This document shows positions 2,882 to 39,740 of a stretch of DNA of 64,000 bases, one piece after another; the first letter of the stretch is position 1, and each line of letters starts with the position of its first letter. The notes below the pieces were generated by a model. That model had not been told where the DNA came from. It made no database searches and worked only from the letters and a program-made list of their open reading frames with translations. This DNA comes from Stutzerimonas stutzeri (GTDB taxonomy: Bacteria; Pseudomonadota; Gammaproteobacteria; Pseudomonadales; Pseudomonadaceae): contig NZ_JAMOIC010000006.1 of assembly GCF_024448895.1 (NCBI RefSeq), positions 186,001 through 250,000 of the forward strand, read 5' to 3'. Position numbers and translations under genes: made by a program.

Positions 2882-3358
2882 ATGAACAATCGACAGGACG
2901 CGCGCCTTGAGCGCGTACTGGCCACCGTGGCGCTGGTAATCATCGGACTGATCAGCCTTGCCAATGTGGTGGTTCGCTATTTCACCAACGCTTCGTTTGC
3001 CTTCACAGAAGAAATTTCCGTTTTTCTGTTGGTCATCCTGACCTTCGCAGGCGCCTCTGTAGCGATGCGCAGCAACAGGCATATCCGGATAGCGTTTCTT
3101 GAAAGGCTGTTTCCACGGCTTCGCACACCGCTGATCCTGTTGCAATGGCTCGCCAGCGTTCTGGTGCTGGGCCTGGTGCTCTGGTATGGCGGGCATTTCG
3201 CGTTTGAAGAATATCAATGGGAATCCGAATCACCGGGACTTGGCCTGCCTAACTGGTGGTATGTGGTCTGGCTGCCATTTCTGGCGCTTTTAATGTTGGT
3301 GCGTTTGACGCAAATGACAGTGGACCGGCTCCGCGGGAGGCTGTCAGATGAGCCCTGA
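2882..3358 (+). CDS. TRAP transporter small permease, DctQ family
   Basis: Small integral membrane subunit of the TRAP transporter, required with the large subunit for translocation. It has 158 residues and four predicted transmembrane helices, starting with LATVALVIIGLISLANVVVR. The family hallmark FTEEISVFLLVILTF and the following MRSNRHIRI loop are present. Its 3' end overlaps the start of the DctM gene by 11 bases, indicating translational coupling. A GAGG-type site precedes the ATG. Confidence 0.93.
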   Translation: MNNRQDARLERVLATVALVIIGLISLANVVVRYFTNASFAFTEEISVFLLVILTFAGASVAMRSNRHIRIAFLERLFPRLRTPLILLQWLASVLVLGLVLWYGGHFAFEEYQWESESPGLGLPNWWYVVWLPFLALLMLVRLTQMTVDRLRGRLSDEP

Positions 3359-4767: not shown

Positions 4768-6003
4768 TCAGCTACCGATGGCCGCCAGCCCGACGGACTC
4801 ATAGCCGACCCCGGGAGTCGACGCCACTTTCGCCGCACGTTCTGCGCGTTGTTGCATGACGATATCCAGCGCGCGGCTCGGAAGAATGTCGATATCGTCA
4901 AACGTAATTAGTTGACCAGGCTCGACCGCTCTCTTTAGCGCAGTCTTCCTCAACAGGCCGATCGGAACATGATTCAGGTGTTGATCAAGCTTGAGCGCTT
5001 CGCCACGGAACTGGAAACCGCCTATCCCGCGCTCGATCAGCTCCCCTGCGCGCATGGCCCGCTTTGCGATGGCACCCACACCTAGAGTAGGAGCTGTGGA
5101 GTTGTTCAAGAGCACGCCTCCACCACCGAGCACTCGGCGCACAGTCTTGCCGACTTCAAGGGAGCAAAGGTGGAATGGCCGAACCAGCGTGTAATAAGGG
5201 CCGGGGCCAAGCTTGAAGTACTCGATGGCCGCGCGCTGATCATCGTCATGACGACAGACGAGGAATACACCGCCTGCAGGGTAGCCAGCAGGTATCACGT
5301 AATCCACGAACGGCTGGCCCAGCCTGTCCGCCATCATTCCGAGCAGGTTGCCTGTTTCGGTCAAGTTGGTAGACGCCAACCCTTGAAGGCCCTGCTGAGT
5401 AATGCTCGCACCCAGGCCATTCCCGACGATGACCTGCTCGATCTGCACCTTGGTGCCATCGGTGAACGACGTGGTTTGATCAACACTGATGCCCTGACGC
5501 TTCGCCCAATAAGCCATGTCCGCGGGCGAAGGATCATGATTCAGATAACCTTTCATGTTGCCGTAAACCAGTGGCTTGAAACCCATCATCAACGCTTCTT
5601 CATGCAGCGCTGCCAGGGATCCGGGCTGATCGCCCTCGGCCTCGGTGATAAATCCTTTTCCAGCCAGATAGGATCCGGTGGTGACCTGCAATTCGGCGTT
5701 AACGGTGACGACCTGCAAACCAGCCTCGAAGGCTCGCTCTATCACATCGGTCCCGTGGAAAACGTCCCCGCTGCATTCGACGATCACATCAGCATCAGCG
5801 ACCAGTTGATCGATGGAGTTCGTGAGTCGATCCGCCAGAGGAAAATCGCTGAAGGAATTGAGTGGGCGACGAGTCAGGACGTGACTTATTTCCATGTCCG
5901 GATAGTGGCCTTGGATCAACCGAATGAAGCAACGCGCGATCATTCCAGTGCCGGATACACCGATCTTCTTCTTGGCATGCAAGGTAGACATAAACGAATC
6001 CAT
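4768..6003 (-). CDS. NAD(P)-dependent oxidoreductase with C-terminal SAF domain (homoserine-dehydrogenase-like, COG4091 type)
   Basis: A 411-residue protein with an N-terminal Rossmann fold (GVSGTGMIAR, residues about 15-24), a central domain resembling the homoserine dehydrogenase family, and a C-terminal SAF-like region (LRKTALKRAVEPGQLITFDDI). This matches the proteins annotated as predicted homoserine dehydrogenases with SAF domain, several of which act in sugar or sugar-acid catabolism rather than threonine synthesis. The start is either ATG 6003 or the ATG four codons later at 5991; neither has a strong ribosome binding site. It is convergent with the TRAP operon. A shared substrate is possible but only inferred from proximity. 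Confidence 0.82.
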   Translation of the reverse strand: MDSFMSTLHAKKKIGVSGTGMIARCFIRLIQGHYPDMEISHVLTRRPLNSFSDFPLADRLTNSIDQLVADADVIVECSGDVFHGTDVIERAFEAGLQVVTVNAELQVTTGSYLAGKGFITEAEGDQPGSLAALHEEALMMGFKPLVYGNMKGYLNHDPSPADMAYWAKRQGISVDQTTSFTDGTKVQIEQVIVGNGLGASITQQGLQGLASTNLTETGNLLGMMADRLGQPFVDYVIPAGYPAGGVFLVCRHDDDQRAAIEYFKLGPGPYYTLVRPFHLCSLEVGKTVRRVLGGGGVLLNNSTAPTLGVGAIAKRAMRAGELIERGIGGFQFRGEALKLDQHLNHVPIGLLRKTALKRAVEPGQLITFDDIDILPSRALDIVMQQRAERAAKVASTPGVGYESVGLAAIGS

Positions 6004-29672: not shown

Positions 29673-30692
29673 TCACGCGCTTTCGCGCATCACCACTTCG
29701 AAACCCACATCGATGCGTCGTTGCGAAGGCGATTCGCCCCGCATCAGACTGAGCAACATCTGCCCCGCCAATTTACCGATCTCACCACGGATGGTGCGCA
29801 CCGTCGTCAGTGCCGGATGCATCCACGCCGCGGCAGGCAAGTCGTTGAAACCCGCGATCGCCAGCCGCTCTGGCACCGCCAACTGCAGCTGGCGCGCACG
29901 GAACAGTGCGCCAAGTGCGAGATCGTCGTTGTTGAAGAAGATCGCATCGATCTCTGGGTGTTGCGCGAGTAACCGGTCCAGCAACTCGGCGCCGAGCCCG
30001 ATCGATGACACCTGCGGCGTCAGCAGTTCAAGTGCGGCATCGTAGCGGGACGCATCGCGCATCACCTGGCGGTAACCCTCGGCACGCTGGAGCGTCCGCG
30101 GGTCTAGCTGCGCAGCGGCGAACGCGATGTTGCGATAGCCGCGTTCGAGTAGCTTACGGGTCATGGCCGCACCCGCCTCGTACTGCGAAAAACCCACGCA
30201 GTACTCCTCCTCCGCATCGCTGAGCTCCATCAACGTGACGATGGGGCTGGTGTAGCTGCCGAGGACTTCACGCGCGGCGTCGCTGCGTTCGAAGCCGGTT
30301 ACCAATAGCCCCGCCGGCTGGTGCGCCAGATAGGCGCGCAGCAGGCGCTCGTCTTCTTCTGGGTGATAGTGACTGACGCCGATCATTAGCTCGTAACCGG
30401 CAGGCATCAGCACCCGCTGAATGGCCTCGACGGTATCGACGAAGACGGCGTTAGAAAGGGACGGAATGATCACCGCAACCAGATTGGAGCGCGCGCTGGC
30501 AAGATTGCGCGCCGCAGTGTGCGGTACATAGCCCAGGGTCTTGACTGCCGTCATCACCCGTTCGCGCAGCGCATCGGATACCCGTTCGGGTTGCGACAGC
30601 GCACGCGAGGCGGACATCAGCGAGCAACCGGCGCTGCGGGCCACATCGGAAAGCGTGGCCCGTTCCAGGGAACGACGGCGGCGAGAACTCAT
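29673..30692 (-). CDS. gntR: LacI-family repressor of gluconate utilisation
   Basis: A 339-residue LacI/GalR regulator. The helix-turn-helix lies at about 13-60 (ATLSDVARSAGCSLMSASRALSQP) and the hinge helix region reads YVPHTAARNLAS, followed by a sugar-binding-protein-like domain. It resembles the Pseudomonas GntR that represses gluconokinase and gluconate permease genes and is released by gluconate or 6-phosphogluconate. It is the last gene on the strand after the gluconate TRAP genes. A TAGCGCTA palindrome in front of the operon (34382-34397) fits the operator reported for that protein. Confidence 0.88.
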   Translation of the reverse strand: MSSRRRRSLERATLSDVARSAGCSLMSASRALSQPERVSDALRERVMTAVKTLGYVPHTAARNLASARSNLVAVIIPSLSNAVFVDTVEAIQRVLMPAGYELMIGVSHYHPEEDERLLRAYLAHQPAGLLVTGFERSDAAREVLGSYTSPIVTLMELSDAEEEYCVGFSQYEAGAAMTRKLLERGYRNIAFAAAQLDPRTLQRAEGYRQVMRDASRYDAALELLTPQVSSIGLGAELLDRLLAQHPEIDAIFFNNDDLALGALFRARQLQLAVPERLAIAGFNDLPAAAWMHPALTTVRTIRGEIGKLAGQMLLSLMRGESPSQRRIDVGFEVVMRESA

Positions 30693-30761: not shown

Positions 30762-31778
30762 TTACTTCGGGGCTTTTTCGATTTCTGCCTGGACTTCCTT
30801 GAACAGCGGCTCGCCGACCGTATCGACTACGGTCTGAATGGCCGGTTTGGCCTGATCGCGCATGCGCTGGATCTCATCCGGGCTGACCTTGTTGACCGCC
30901 ATGCCCTGTTTTTCGATCTGAGCCAGGGCTTCACGGGCTTCGGCGCGGGTGTCTTCTCGTTCCGAATCACGCGACTTTTTCGCCGCATCCATGATGATCC
31001 CCTGCTCGGTCTCGGAAAGACCGTCCCACCAACGCTTGGACGCCGTGACGATCCAGGGGCTGTAGACGTGGTTGGTCACGCTCAGGTACTTCTGCACTTC
31101 GTAGAATTTCGAGGACAGAATGGTGTTGTAGGGGTTTTCCTGACCGTCAACCGCTTTGGTTTCCAGCGCAGTGAACAGCTCGGAGAACGGCAGCGGGACG
31201 GCATTGGCGCCCATCTGCTTGAAGGTGTCGATGAACACCGGGTTCGGCATAACGCGCAACTTGATGCCGTTGAAATCTTCCATCTTCTCGACCGGGCGAA
31301 CGTTGTTGGTCAGGTTACGGAAACCATTTTCCCAGTAGACCAAGCCAACCAGCCCTTTGGCCTCGAGCGCATCCATGACTTTCTGGCCAACCGGGCCATC
31401 GAGCACGTAGTCGGCCTGCTTTTCACTTTCGAACAGGAATGGCGTATCCCAAACGGCCATTTCTTTTGCGATGCCGACCAGGGTTGCGGTCGAGCCGACC
31501 ATCATTTCCTGTGCGCCACCCATCAGCGCGTTCTGCATCTGGTCATCAGAACCAAGGCTGGCCGAGGCGAAGGTACGGACCTTCAGCTTGCCATCGGAGG
31601 CCTTGGCGATTTCCTCGGCAAGCACTTTGGCGGCGCGACCCTGGTTGCTGTCCTCGTTGAGGCCATAACCGAAGCGGATCATCCGCGAGCGAACGTCATC
31701 GGCTGCCTGCGCCGACACGGCAGTGATAGCGCTGCCAAGGGTGGTGGCAGCCAACGCCGCTATGAGAAATCGTTTCAT
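30762..31778 (-). CDS. Gluconate-module TRAP periplasmic binding protein, DctP family
   Basis: Periplasmic receptor of 338 residues with a Sec signal peptide (cleavage near SAQA-ADD, residue 26). It has the DctP landmarks IKLRVMPNPVFIDTF (substrate-binding Arg) and KAVDGQENPYNTIL. It lies 94 bases downstream of the DctM gene in a transporter module headed by a gluconokinase, so gluconate or a close sugar acid is the predicted ligand. The substrate assignment is inferred from context, not from the binding-site residues. Confidence 0.92.
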   Translation of the reverse strand: MKRFLIAALAATTLGSAITAVSAQAADDVRSRMIRFGYGLNEDSNQGRAAKVLAEEIAKASDGKLKVRTFASASLGSDDQMQNALMGGAQEMMVGSTATLVGIAKEMAVWDTPFLFESEKQADYVLDGPVGQKVMDALEAKGLVGLVYWENGFRNLTNNVRPVEKMEDFNGIKLRVMPNPVFIDTFKQMGANAVPLPFSELFTALETKAVDGQENPYNTILSSKFYEVQKYLSVTNHVYSPWIVTASKRWWDGLSETEQGIIMDAAKKSRDSEREDTRAEAREALAQIEKQGMAVNKVSPDEIQRMRDQAKPAIQTVVDTVGEPLFKEVQAEIEKAPK

Positions 31779-31872: not shown

Positions 31873-33150
31873 TTAACGCAGCCACTGCAGCGGCACTGTG
31901 ATGATCGAGGGCACCGCAATCAGCAGCGCGACGATGACCAGATAGATGCCGAAGAACGGTGTCACGCCGCGCACCAGCGTTTCCATGCGCAGCCGCCCTA
32001 TTCCGCCGACGACGTTCAACACCGTACCGACTGGCGGCGTGATCAGCCCGATCGAGCCAATCAGCACGAACATCACACCGAAGTACACGGGGTCGATACC
32101 GGCCTTCACGGCAATCGGCGCCAGCACCGGCCCGAGAATCAGGATGGTCGGCGTAAGGTCGAGCACCATGCCGACCGCGATCATCAGCACCATGATGGCG
32201 ACCATGAGCAACTTCGGATCCTGCGCCAACGGGCCAAGCATGGTGGCGATTTCATCGGGCAGCTGAGCCAGGGTGATCATGTAAGCCGAAACGATCGCAG
32301 CGGCGCAGAGGAACATTACCGAGGCGGTGGTACGGCTCGCGCGGGTGAGCACTTCGACCACGCCGCTCCAGCTCAACTCGCGGTACAACAGTGTCGAAAC
32401 GGCCAGCGCGTATACAGCAGCCACCACGGCGGCCTCCGTCGGTGTAAACAGCCCGCCGCGCAGGCCTCCGACGATGATCACCGGCAGCATCAATGCCGCC
32501 GCGCCATCGACAAGGGCCTTGCGACGCTCTGCGGCGGTTGCCTTTTCCTGCGGTGGTTCATCGATTCTGCGGGCAATAATCGTCCACGCGACGATGAGGC
32601 CCATCCCCATGATCAGGCCCGGCACCATGCCGGCTAGAAACAACTGGCTGATCGAGGTATTGGTGACCACACCATAAATGACGAAGGGCATCGAAGGCGG
32701 AATGATCGGCGCGATGATGCCGCCGGCGGCCACCAGGCCGGATGACGAACTCAACGGGTAGCCACGCTCGCGCATCATTGGCAGCAACAGCGTCGCCAGT
32801 GCGGCGGTGTCTGCCAGCGCCGAACCGGACATGCTCGCCAACAGCACCGAAGCAGCAATCGCGACGTAACCCAGCCCGCCACGCTTGTGACCGAAATAGG
32901 CCTGCGCCATGTTGATGATGCGGCGGGAAATGCCGCCGGCGTTCATCAGCTCACCCGCCAGAATGAAGAACGGCACAGCGAGCAACGGAAAGCTGTCGGC
33001 ACCGGCCTGAAGGTTCTGTGCAATCAGCTGCACATCCCAGAAATCCAGGTACCACATCAACACCGCGCCGGTGAGGATCAGCGCGAAAGCGATCGGCATG
33101 CCGAATGCCATGAAGCCAAACAGTGAAGAAAGGAAAACGACGACAGTCAT
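31873..33150 (-). CDS. Gluconate-module TRAP large permease, DctM family
   Basis: Large permease of 425 residues with about 12 membrane segments. Typical landmarks are FGMPIAFALILTGAVLMW, PFFILAGELMNAGG, SMSGSALADTAALATLLLP and IGLITPPVGTVLNVV. It starts 40 bases after the end of the kinase-DctQ fusion gene and should pair with its membrane domain. DctP follows. Together with the fusion it forms a complete TRAP system. Confidence 0.94.
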   Translation of the reverse strand: MTVVVFLSSLFGFMAFGMPIAFALILTGAVLMWYLDFWDVQLIAQNLQAGADSFPLLAVPFFILAGELMNAGGISRRIINMAQAYFGHKRGGLGYVAIAASVLLASMSGSALADTAALATLLLPMMRERGYPLSSSSGLVAAGGIIAPIIPPSMPFVIYGVVTNTSISQLFLAGMVPGLIMGMGLIVAWTIIARRIDEPPQEKATAAERRKALVDGAAALMLPVIIVGGLRGGLFTPTEAAVVAAVYALAVSTLLYRELSWSGVVEVLTRASRTTASVMFLCAAAIVSAYMITLAQLPDEIATMLGPLAQDPKLLMVAIMVLMIAVGMVLDLTPTILILGPVLAPIAVKAGIDPVYFGVMFVLIGSIGLITPPVGTVLNVVGGIGRLRMETLVRGVTPFFGIYLVIVALLIAVPSIITVPLQWLR

Positions 33151-33190: not shown

Positions 33191-34333
33191 TCAGTCAGCC
33201 GTTACGTTGGCGTCGGCAGCATGCGGCTGTGGCTGTCCGCGCCAGACGTTAACGAGCTGCACCAGGGCCAAGACTGCGAGCGCGATCATGCTGACCATGA
33301 CCGGCAACATTGCAACGGCTAGCGGGTAACCCACTACAGGACTGTTGATCGTCCAGCCGAACTGCATCTGGTTCCATCCACCCATGGCCGCCATCCCGCT
33401 GGCACCTGCCACCAGCAGCCAGCTGATCGAATCGACCACACGACGGAACAGGATCGGGAACCGATCACGAACCATGCTGAACGCCATCAACTCGCCGCGT
33501 CGCATGCTGGATGCAACACCGACAAAGACAAGCCAGACAAAGGCCAGTCGCGATAGCTCTTCGGCGCCGGTCCAGCCGGTGCCGAAGGCATAGCGAAGCA
33601 CCACGCTGCTGAACACGACAACCACCATGAACGCCAGTAACGCTGCCATCAGCCAATCGGTAATGCGGTCGAAACCCAGGGCGAGCTTGCCGCTGTAGAT
33701 AGGCGGGCTGGTCAGCTCGGCGCCCTTTCCAGCGTCACTGTTAGCGCTATCAAGCGGAGCCGCGGAATGGCCTTCGGCATCACTGATCTCAAGACCCGGC
33801 GCGCGCTGCATCCATTCAACGATCTCCGCCAGCACCTGCTCGCGCGGTTGGCTGGCATCGACCACCAGAACGCCGGGCTCGCCTTCTGGCGATTCAAGCG
33901 TGGCGAACTGGCTGTCCACCAGGGAAATCGGCATGAAATGCCCGGCACGCCCGCCGACTCTTTGCACTGCCGTGTCGTAATCGATGGACAGGTGAGCAAA
34001 CCGCAACTCGGCAACCGCATCGCGCAACAGATCGCGATAGCGACGTTTGAGCGCCGAACAGGCCAGCACGAAGCCGACGCCATCATCAATGGCGCGCTGC
34101 ATTTCGACGACCAGTTTCTGCAGCCAAACGACGCGGTCAGCGTCGGACAACGGCGTACCGGCGCGCATGCGAGCAACGTTTTCTTCAGGGTGGAAATGGT
34201 CGGCTTCGATGTGGCGAAAGCCCAGTGCGTCCGCGACGGCGTGGCTGGTTTCGGTCTTGCCCGAACCGCTGACGCCCATCACGACCAAGGCTCGGCCAGT
34301 AGCGGAAAAATCGCTGGGGGAGTGGGAATCCAC
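33191..34333 (-). CDS. gntK: Gluconokinase fused to TRAP small permease (GntK-DctQ)
   Basis: One uninterrupted frame encodes two domains. Residues about 10-178 are a gluconokinase (ATP + gluconate to 6-phosphogluconate): Walker A GVSGSGKT at 20-27, ADHFHPEENVARM, LSDADRVVWLQ, CSALKRRYRDLLR and GHFMPISLVDSQF, all matching GntK. A hydrophilic linker rich in Ser, Ala and Asp runs to about 216. Residues about 220-370 are a DctQ subunit with four predicted helices and the TGAEELSRLAFVWLVF signature. The GTG at 34333 is chosen because GGAG lies six bases upstream; an in-frame ATG at 34351 lacks such a site. DctM and DctP follow. DctQ N-termini face the cytoplasm, so the kinase would sit at the inner mouth of the transporter. 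Confidence 0.93.
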   Translation of the reverse strand: MDSHSPSDFSATGRALVVMGVSGSGKTETSHAVADALGFRHIEADHFHPEENVARMRAGTPLSDADRVVWLQKLVVEMQRAIDDGVGFVLACSALKRRYRDLLRDAVAELRFAHLSIDYDTAVQRVGGRAGHFMPISLVDSQFATLESPEGEPGVLVVDASQPREQVLAEIVEWMQRAPGLEISDAEGHSAAPLDSANSDAGKGAELTSPPIYSGKLALGFDRITDWLMAALLAFMVVVVFSSVVLRYAFGTGWTGAEELSRLAFVWLVFVGVASSMRRGELMAFSMVRDRFPILFRRVVDSISWLLVAGASGMAAMGGWNQMQFGWTINSPVVGYPLAVAMLPVMVSMIALAVLALVQLVNVWRGQPQPHAADANVTAD

Positions 34334-34381: not shown

Positions 34382-34397
34382 ATGGTAGCGCTAACAT
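34382..34397. promoter_or_regulatory. Putative GntR operator before the gluconate operon
   Basis: ATGGTAGCGCTAACAT is a near-perfect 16-bp palindrome (14 of 16 positions symmetric) centred on TAGCGCTA. The TAGCGCT core agrees with the GntR operator reported in P. aeruginosa. It lies 49 bases upstream of the fusion-gene start, where bound repressor would block initiation. Confidence 0.7.
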
Positions 34398-38702: not shown

Positions 38703-38768
38703 CCAGGCTTGAAACCGCCGCCGTAGGCAGTCAGTGCAATCAAAAACAACGACAAGAAAGGATTGACC

Positions 38769-39740
38769 ATGAACCAGAAGATTCGCGTGTCCTTGCTGAG
38801 CTGCGCCCTGGCGGGCGTCCTGAACATCACGGCTGCATCCGCCCAGGAGCGCTTCGTTACCATCGGTACGGGCGGCCAGACAGGGGTGTATTACACCGCA
38901 GGTCAGTCGGTGTGCCGCTTCCTCAACCGCGCCGAGGCGCAGCCGCCGATCAAGTGCAACGCGCCCTCTACAGCCGGCAGCGTGACCAACATCGTGTCGC
39001 TGCAAAAGGGCGAATACGAATTCGGCTTTATCCAGTCTGACCACCAGCACAAGGCGCTCGAAGGTCTCGCCCCGTTCGATAAGGATGGTCCGATCGAGGA
39101 ACTCAGGGCCGTTTTCTCCTTGCAAACCGAAATTCTGACAGTGGTGGCCCGCGAGGACAGCGGCATCAAGTCCTTCGATGATCTGAAGGGTAAACGCGTA
39201 AACATCGGCGTGCCGGGCTCAGGTAGCCGCGACACGTTCGATGAGGTGATGAAGGCCCGGGGTTGGTCCAACGCCGACTTTGCCCTTGCCGGTGAGCTCA
39301 AGCCGGCGGAGATGGCATCGGCCCTCGGCGACAACAACCTCGATGTCATCACTTACGTGGTCGGACACCCCAGCGGCGCCATCCAAGAAGCGCTGACCAA
39401 CGTAAAAGCCCAGTTGATCCCTGTGCAAGGGCCGGAGATCGAGAAGTTCCTGCAAGGCGCCGACTACTACACCGCCGCCGAAATCCCTGCCGGACTCTAC
39501 CCTGGCGTAGACGAGCCCGTGCCCTCCATCGGCGGCAAAGCAGTGCTCGCCGCCACCACTGAGACCGATCCGGATGTCGTGTACCAGCTTGTAAAAGCCG
39601 TCTTCGACAACCTGGAACGCTTCAAGCGTCTGCACCCGGCTTTTGCCGATCTCCAGGCAAAGGACATGATCCGTGTCGGCCTGACTGCACCACTGCATGA
39701 AGGCGCGCAGCGGTTCTACAAGGAAAAAGGCTGGCTCTGA
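38769..39740 (+). CDS. TAXI-type TRAP solute-binding protein (orphan)
   Basis: A 323-residue periplasmic protein. The signal peptide (MNQKIRVSLLSCALAGVLN, cleavage near ASA-QE) is followed by the TAXI-family N-terminus IGTGGQTGVYYTAGQSVCRFLNR. Later landmarks are VARedSGIKSFDDLKGKRVNIG-type strand (VAREDSGIKSFDDLKGK) and GSGSRDTFDEV. TAXI proteins bind glutamate, glutamine or similar solutes. No DctQM permease is encoded nearby, so it must work with a permease elsewhere. AAGAAAGGA lies upstream of the ATG; an earlier in-frame TTG is less likely. Confidence 0.9.
   Translation: MNQKIRVSLLSCALAGVLNITAASAQERFVTIGTGGQTGVYYTAGQSVCRFLNRAEAQPPIKCNAPSTAGSVTNIVSLQKGEYEFGFIQSDHQHKALEGLAPFDKDGPIEELRAVFSLQTEILTVVAREDSGIKSFDDLKGKRVNIGVPGSGSRDTFDEVMKARGWSNADFALAGELKPAEMASALGDNNLDVITYVVGHPSGAIQEALTNVKAQLIPVQGPEIEKFLQGADYYTAAEIPAGLYPGVDEPVPSIGGKAVLAATTETDPDVVYQLVKAVFDNLERFKRLHPAFADLQAKDMIRVGLTAPLHEGAQRFYKEKGWL

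Follow-up and report, generated by a model that had tools for sequence, protein, structure and literature searches.

A conserved gluconokinase-DctQ fusion in Pseudomonadaceae, with a candidate GntR-type operator in the linker between its two domains

A co-induced gluconokinase and TRAP-type gluconate uptake system are both named in a study of Halomonas HL-48, so that a TRAP gluconate importer accompanied by gntK is not new in itself (PMC5762899, available portion). The gntK and gntXYZ system resembles the locus described here in the co-induction of a gluconokinase and a TRAP gluconate importer, and it occurs as unfused operons in other families; the genes are separate there, and the accessible part of the source mentions neither a fusion nor an operator in a coding region. 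The gntR/gnuK/gntP loci of Pseudomonas aeruginosa and P. plecoglossicida share with our locus, as far as the available text of the two papers goes, the same LacI-type GntR, the gluconokinase, the AGCGCT core and a site placed before gntP, but their proteins are separate, GntP is not a TRAP permease and the operator is intergenic, whereas it is coding in the window, the whole stretch of 64,000 nucleotides that was analysed (PMC5902321, PMC12195362). In the fused DctQM TRAP permeases (PMC5812351; the solved SiaT and DctMQ) Q is joined to M, whereas Q of the window bears a soluble enzyme at its N-terminus. Less than 1% of LacI-family sites lay in coding regions in one survey, where LacI in lacZ and PurR in purB are given as proven cases in the part available; the site in the window would likewise be a LacI-family site in coding sequence, but it lies in the linker of a fusion and would fix conserved residues in the middle of that linker (PMC4052901).

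The fusion gene (33191..34333) lies on the minus strand, where positions 34351-33191 form a single open reading frame of 386 codons counted from the first ATG. The gluconokinase domain (minus strand, 33797..34294; residues 20-185 in the 386-residue numbering) matched TIGR01313 over residues 22-182 with 178.5 bits, covering positions 1-163 of 164 in the profile (curated cut-off, 113.75 bits), and the DctQ part, the TRAP small permease (minus strand, 33194..33715; residues 213-386), matched PF04290 over residues 242-371 with 81.8 bits (cut-off, 28.3 bits). The protein would have 386 residues from ATG 34351 or 380 from GTG 34333, and the second start is probably the right one, since GGAG stands 6 nt 5' of the GTG and the first possible start of two aligned relatives (L044 and L047) coincides with it. 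The sequence-only reading had proposed a one-frame fusion with an end at 34333 and no in-frame stop between the two domains; the single frame and the absence of a stop were borne out, and the end at 34333 is probably right, with the addition of the strand, which it had left out. The linker (minus strand, 33716..33796; residues 186-212) varies in length and sequence and has low model confidence, and a conserved LTxxPIYSG stretch (residues 213-221) joins it to DctQ.

The genes dctM, for the TRAP large permease (minus strand, 31873..33150; PF06808, 402.3 bits), and dctP, for the TRAP solute-binding protein (minus strand, 30762..31778; PF03480, 313 bits), come next after the fusion gene, in agreement with the earlier claim that they follow it directly. 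Downstream of dctP stands gntR (minus strand, 29673..30692), predicted to encode a LacI-family gluconate repressor (NF052440, 478.4 bits, against a cut-off of 400 bits). Among solved structures, the best match to the window DctP was 7bbr (E 2.9e-98), which we take to be CxaP. Gluconic acid is listed among the ligands of CxaP, a sugar-acid TRAP binding protein of another bacterium, in the part of a review available to us (PMC12076931), and it is through 7bbr that the window DctP resembles it. The match to the GntR model and the relationship of DctP to 7bbr thus point to gluconate, and the gluconate specificity of DctP is a prediction from homology and operon context. Elsewhere in the window, another DctQ-like gene (2924-3304, a weak match) has DctP- and DctM-like frames alongside, and the product of 38763-39740 resembles by eye a TRAP binding protein, presumably of the TAXI type.

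Both domains appear from their codon substitutions to be under purifying selection (median dN/dS, 0.20 for the kinase and 0.19 for DctQ). The kinase motifs GVSGSGKT, ACSALK and GHFM, presumably the P-loop and family motifs, are intact in the fusion, most of their columns being common even to kinases that are 38% identical. The nearest folds to the modelled kinase were 4eun, a sugar kinase, and the gluconokinases 3t61 and 1knq, with TM-scores of at most 0.90 by target length. The structure model is useful for the kinase domain only: pLDDT fell below 50 at residues 189-224, and the model was weak over DctQ, with block means of 49-74 for residues 221-370 and a shallow alignment. Long DctQ helices were placed by this low-confidence model at residues 222-256, 261-284, 300-335 and 341-371.

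Of 30 fused genomes, ten, the window's genome included, had a further match across the kinase domain and 20 had none; the fused kinase is therefore probably required. The window's genome carries a second GntK-type gluconokinase (4901-5536 of locus L094, on contig C15; TIGR01313, 159 bits), 36% identical to the fused kinase and with no operator pattern nearby. The same genome holds one GntP-family permease.

Residues at the Q-M interface are kept in both subunits, as judged by alignment: Arg253 and Arg268 of DctQ align with R32 and R47 of SiaQ, and Glu239 and Asp52 of DctM align with E237 and D50 of SiaM. In the solved SiaQM, R32 and R47 of SiaQ form salt bridges to the M subunit, and the Q subunit has both its N- and C-termini inside, as stated in the available text (PMC9971032). 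Since the Q subunit of SiaQM is N-in, the kinase is expected to face the cytoplasm, and a cytoplasmic kinase docked to the transporter would be the natural reading by analogy. The sequence-only reading had placed the kinase at the inner face of the transporter; the kept Q-M residues and the N-in topology of SiaQ favour this placement, which itself rests on the analogy. That reading went further in suggesting that gluconate could be phosphorylated on entry, as a TRAP analogue of coupled transport and phosphorylation. In a kinetically coupled system, the kinase would take gluconate at the inner mouth of the importer before it reaches the cytosol, as an analogue of group translocation. The topology of the SiaQM Q subunit, with a kinase that should face the cytoplasm (PMC9971032, portion available), and the preserved interface would suit such coupling, but a variable and probably disordered linker would provide nearness without a channel, and no docking feature was seen; we regard coupling as plausible but on balance unlikely. 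The parts are a kinase of the P-loop type and a permease driven by ions, and no PTS domain was reported among the profile matches.

The window was assigned to the Pseudomonadaceae (hereafter, the family) by its nearest named members, which are Stutzerimonas. Both domains were found in one frame in 72 of 398 family genomes, as a single match in 68 and as two matches inside one ORF of 415-424 codons in four; by genus label, these were g1 (n = 45; the window's genus, with 56 genomes sampled), g25 (n = 2), g27 (n = 3) and g36 (n = 22). One of the matches (G215) counts a stop, and its own frame holds both domains, which puts the stop upstream of the start. A DctM search of 376 family genomes recovered 74 carriers, namely the 72 fused genomes, G004, where the match runs into a contig end, and G032, with the sole split copy seen (locus L076, 4639-5768). 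In this copy a one-base deletion in the linker brings in a stop codon, and a TTG that could serve as the start of DctQ overlaps it; close relatives have intact copies, and the split may be real or a sequencing error. In the named genome collection the fusion was present in 29 of 31 loci, all from Stutzerimonas or Pseudomonas, the other two being Algoriphagus kinases alone. The 22 fused loci in a DctM tree of 39 sequences formed one clade (100/100, in all 200 bootstrap trees), several of the unfused rows being long-branched and unsure in their order.

No full-length fusion was detected outside the family in the order (390 genomes) and class (369 genomes) samples, and in the phylum sample (398 genomes) the full-length fused rows among the matches listed all came from the window's family; the three samples share some genomes, few candidates were scored in each genome at the initial step, and a fusion whose DctQ part scored below threshold would escape these searches. 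In the sole row from outside the family that covered both domains (G1295), these are separated by a stop. When fetched loci not belonging to the fused set were checked, extended frames following the kinase occurred only in duplicate copies of fused genes and in L112, L114 and L144. A stop stands directly after the kinase in L112 and L114, which were rejected as fusions. Locus L144 (1357-2811, from G1031, of another family of the class) combines in one frame a GntK-type kinase of 43% identity and, C-terminal to it, an SMP-30/gluconolactonase domain (PF08450, 138 bits), and is a second, different gluconokinase fusion. Two of 410 matching records in the plasmid collection cover at least 80% of the query, and both annotate two separate genes. 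Within these samples, the lineage count that the sequence-only reading had called for places the fusion in the Pseudomonadaceae, and adjacent but separate gntK, dctQ, dctM and dctP genes occur outside it.

An assembly error had been named beforehand among the findings that would undo the fusion. The same frame recurs in many independent assemblies, including several single-contig chromosomes, so that an artefact of assembly or sequencing has a negligible probability; nothing speaks for it in the fusion as such, and it is the split copy in G032 that could be a sequencing error. By these comparisons the locus is a genuine, conserved gluconokinase-DctQ fusion, an architecture new for a known type of gluconate operon. 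No description of a GntK-DctQ fusion or of a linker operator was found among literature titles and abstract openings, a scope that covered few subscription journals.

Nine loci (L124, L151-L155 and L160-L162) carry gntK and dctQ as adjacent but separate genes, with dctM and dctP next in order; a gntR-like gene lies upstream in divergent orientation. gntK and dctQ are in different frames in seven of them and in the same frame with a stop between in the other two. The unfused operon of Comamonas continues with an oxidoreductase gene and then edd, for phosphogluconate dehydratase (TIGR01196, 903 bits), which fits gluconate catabolism via 6-phosphogluconate. Candidate loci set aside from this group had the kinase without TRAP genes (L156 and L157), another gene order (L159) or TRAP genes without the kinase (L125-L130, L135 and L158, with dctQ only in L126). 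A kinase that stands alone, with 67-69% identity to the fused one, was present in three genomes of the window's genus (G005, G206 and G246; loci L079-L081), and no DctM match was obtained in them at the threshold used. In L080, the one of the three reduced loci whose neighbours were compared, the stand-alone gntK (5083-5643) stands between the window's neighbours, and dctQ, dctM, dctP and gntR are gone. Loci of this type seemingly kept the kinase without the transporter.

These relatives bear on the possibility that the fusion is a harmless read-through, in which the kinase would work as if free and the tether would have no kinetic value, providing only co-expression and a 1:1 dosage. The nine unfused relatives share the gene order with a separate gntK and dctQ, a relative of the kinase persists in the absence of the transporter in three genomes of the genus, and the gap between the domain matches varies from 96 to 201 nt, all of which would be compatible with a neutral tether; the fused state, on the other hand, is kept in 72 of 74 genomes from four genus-level groups, with one split copy. 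We consider this explanation a serious one, its probability falling somewhat short of even.

A search of the window for GntR-like palindromes yielded two candidate operators, both on the minus strand: O1, TGTTAGCGCTACCA (34383..34396), upstream of the fusion gene, and O2, TGATAGCGCTAACA (33739..33752), which is 644 bp from O1, lies within the linker and covers Asp201-Ser-Ala-Asn204. The linker had been described earlier as Ser/Ala/Asp-rich; this composition holds, but the candidate operator palindrome at 33739-33752 makes it more than filler. The operator is in our view more surprising than the fusion, and it was absent from the sequence-only reading. Published Pseudomonas GntR operators have an AGCGCT core according to the available text (PMC5902321, PMC12195362); the palindromes of O1 and O2 hold this core, and their flanks differ from the published consensus sequences.

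The conservation of both sites was assessed in the 72 family genomes with the fusion together with the 29 named loci, two sets that overlap; merging of identical coding sequences reduced 104 loci to 71 distinct ones, and thinning at 95% identity left 57. One locus that copies the window (L001), three unfused loci with stops between the domains (L145, L151 and L160) and the split copy (L076) were left out. With at most one mismatch, O2 was present in 66 of the 71 distinct genes and in 52 of the 57 thinned ones, and an upstream site of the O1 type in all of them (71/71 and 57/57). No other site of the operator pattern was found in the 62,775 nt of the 57 thinned coding sequences, and resampling of synonymous codons in the linkers produced a mean of 1.15 sites per 57 sequences, with a maximum of five in 200 trials. 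Counted by genome, O2 was present in 67 of 72, the exceptions being G017, G188, G142, G150 and G163. Since it is absent from five of the 71 distinct genes (L015, L077, L084, L086 and L087), O2 seems dispensable for the fusion. Three of these, L084, L086 and L087, carry genus label g27 and are fused with linkers that lack the operator; no gntR-like gene was found within the stretch read of L086 and L087.

Exact matches to TGNTAGCGCTANCA occurred at two places only in the 5.39 Mb genome of the window, O1 and O2. With one mismatch allowed, the operator pattern gave four matches per strand and a reversed control 11, so only the exact sites carry weight genome-wide. A weaker operator-like palindrome at the start of dctP (31724-31737) has one mismatch and is patchy in relatives, and we do not claim it as a third operator. 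No sigma-70-like promoter was recognized by consensus at O1 or O2, a search that another promoter type would escape. The O1-O2 spacing ranged from 629 to 664 bp across the fused genes with no fixed helical phase, which weakens a rigid-loop model.

Codon usage within the linker was examined for a constraint acting on the DNA. The linker (residues 185-225 minus the four operator codons) is the fastest-changing segment of the gene, with a median dN/dS of 0.68; restricted to the four operator codons, dN/dS was 0.38 (152 of 855 pairs), a figure of little weight because the calculation takes in genes that lack the operator. Mean pS was 0.32 in the operator codons vs. 0.59 in the remainder of the linker. 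When exact 10-mers were counted over the entire gene, GATAGCGCTA was common to more sequences than any other (49 of 57), words in other parts reaching 48. This sharing is explained by the candidate operator, because the codons behind it are frozen: Asp201 is GAT in 53/55, Ser202 is AGC in 51/51 and Ala203 is GCT in 51/52, each being the most frozen among the conserved columns for its residue (12 Asp, 17 Ser and 24 Ala columns), and the triplet ranks first of 74 conserved triplets. GCT represents 12% of the Ala codons in these genes. As an internal control, Leu213, Pro217, Ile218, Tyr219, Gly221 and Ala224 are conserved in the protein with free codons, the top codon accounting for 49-82%.

A conserved DSA(N/T) motif kept for the sake of the protein, and not as a DNA operator, is the first alternative to consider here. 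Asp201 is indeed present in 55 of the 57 thinned sequences, including four without the operator, but a requirement of the protein would not account for GCT in 51 of 52 codons for Ala203 or AGC in all 51 for Ser202 next to conserved residues that use their codons freely; moreover, one sequence with Asp replaced by Gly and one with an inserted residue both keep the core of the palindrome. We therefore find this explanation highly improbable. O2 could also be what is left of an intergenic operator, decayed and now functionless, for which its position near that of the gntK-gntP operator and its absence from five of the 71 distinct genes could be adduced. A relic would lose its synonymous positions, however, and GATAGCGCTA is the top shared 10-mer in spite of lying in the fastest-changing segment, which leaves a relic improbable. 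By the codon evidence, the Asp-Ser-Ala at the centre of the linker is dictated by the DNA, that is, by the candidate operator.

Operator-like sites of the unfused gntK-TRAP relatives were upstream of gntK, and none was found between gntK and dctQ. In nine of 12 family genomes with a separate gntK, an operator-like core lies 6-27 nt after the gntK stop, ahead of a permease gene; the 12 are the fetched genomes of this kind, a non-random set that leaves out the three reduced loci, where no site was present. One of these permeases is GntP (TIGR00791, 533 bits) and the other eight are similar by eye. Measured from the kinase start, the core is at 525-537 nt in the gntK-permease loci, and the exact cores of O2 are at 543-558 nt in 64 of 65 genes and at 531 nt in one. 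In P. plecoglossicida, a footprinted GntR site precedes gntP, which starts 100 bp after gntK (PMC12195362, available text). Because such a site often lies shortly behind the gntK stop in relatives that have gntK and gntP as separate genes, an operator between genes is the probable origin of the linker. The ancestral order would have been gntK, operator and gntP; dctQMP would then have replaced gntP, the gntK stop would have been lost, and the gap with the operator would have become a coding linker. The kinase tree neither supported nor excluded either parentage of the fused kinase, from the gntK-gntP line or from the gntK-TRAP line.

Taken as a whole, the locus probably encodes a gluconokinase that is tethered to the membrane as part of a gluconate TRAP importer, and its linker, likely derived from a gntK/gntP ancestor, would carry a second GntR operator; the substrate, the kinase activity, the location and any kinetic gain from the tether are what we infer from the comparisons above. 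DctP would capture gluconate in the periplasm, DctQ-DctM would carry it in on an ion gradient, and the kinase domain would convert it to 6-phosphogluconate on the cytoplasmic side. GntR would bind O1 upstream and O2 about 644 bp further on inside the gene, as LacI does at its site in lacZ, and would repress the operon by looping or as a roadblock, both being possible. Gluconate or 6-phosphogluconate would release it, as both do for GntR of P. aeruginosa in the portion of the study available (PMC5902321); if 6-phosphogluconate releases GntR, the product of the kinase would feed back on its own induction. A fuller version, which we put forward tentatively, is that of a two-in-one linker, at once a tether between kinase and importer and a working operator, left from a gntK/gntP arrangement, whose middle is fixed by selection on the DNA, with gluconate trapped on entry and the two operators 0.64 kb apart.

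The locus suggests a route to fusion in which a control site between two genes of an operon is taken into coding sequence as a linker without losing its function in the DNA, and conserved linker residues may accordingly reflect regulation rather than protein function. It would also offer a well-conserved natural experiment on whether nutrients are captured faster when a kinase is attached to the importer, in which the unfused and transporter-less relatives would serve as controls.
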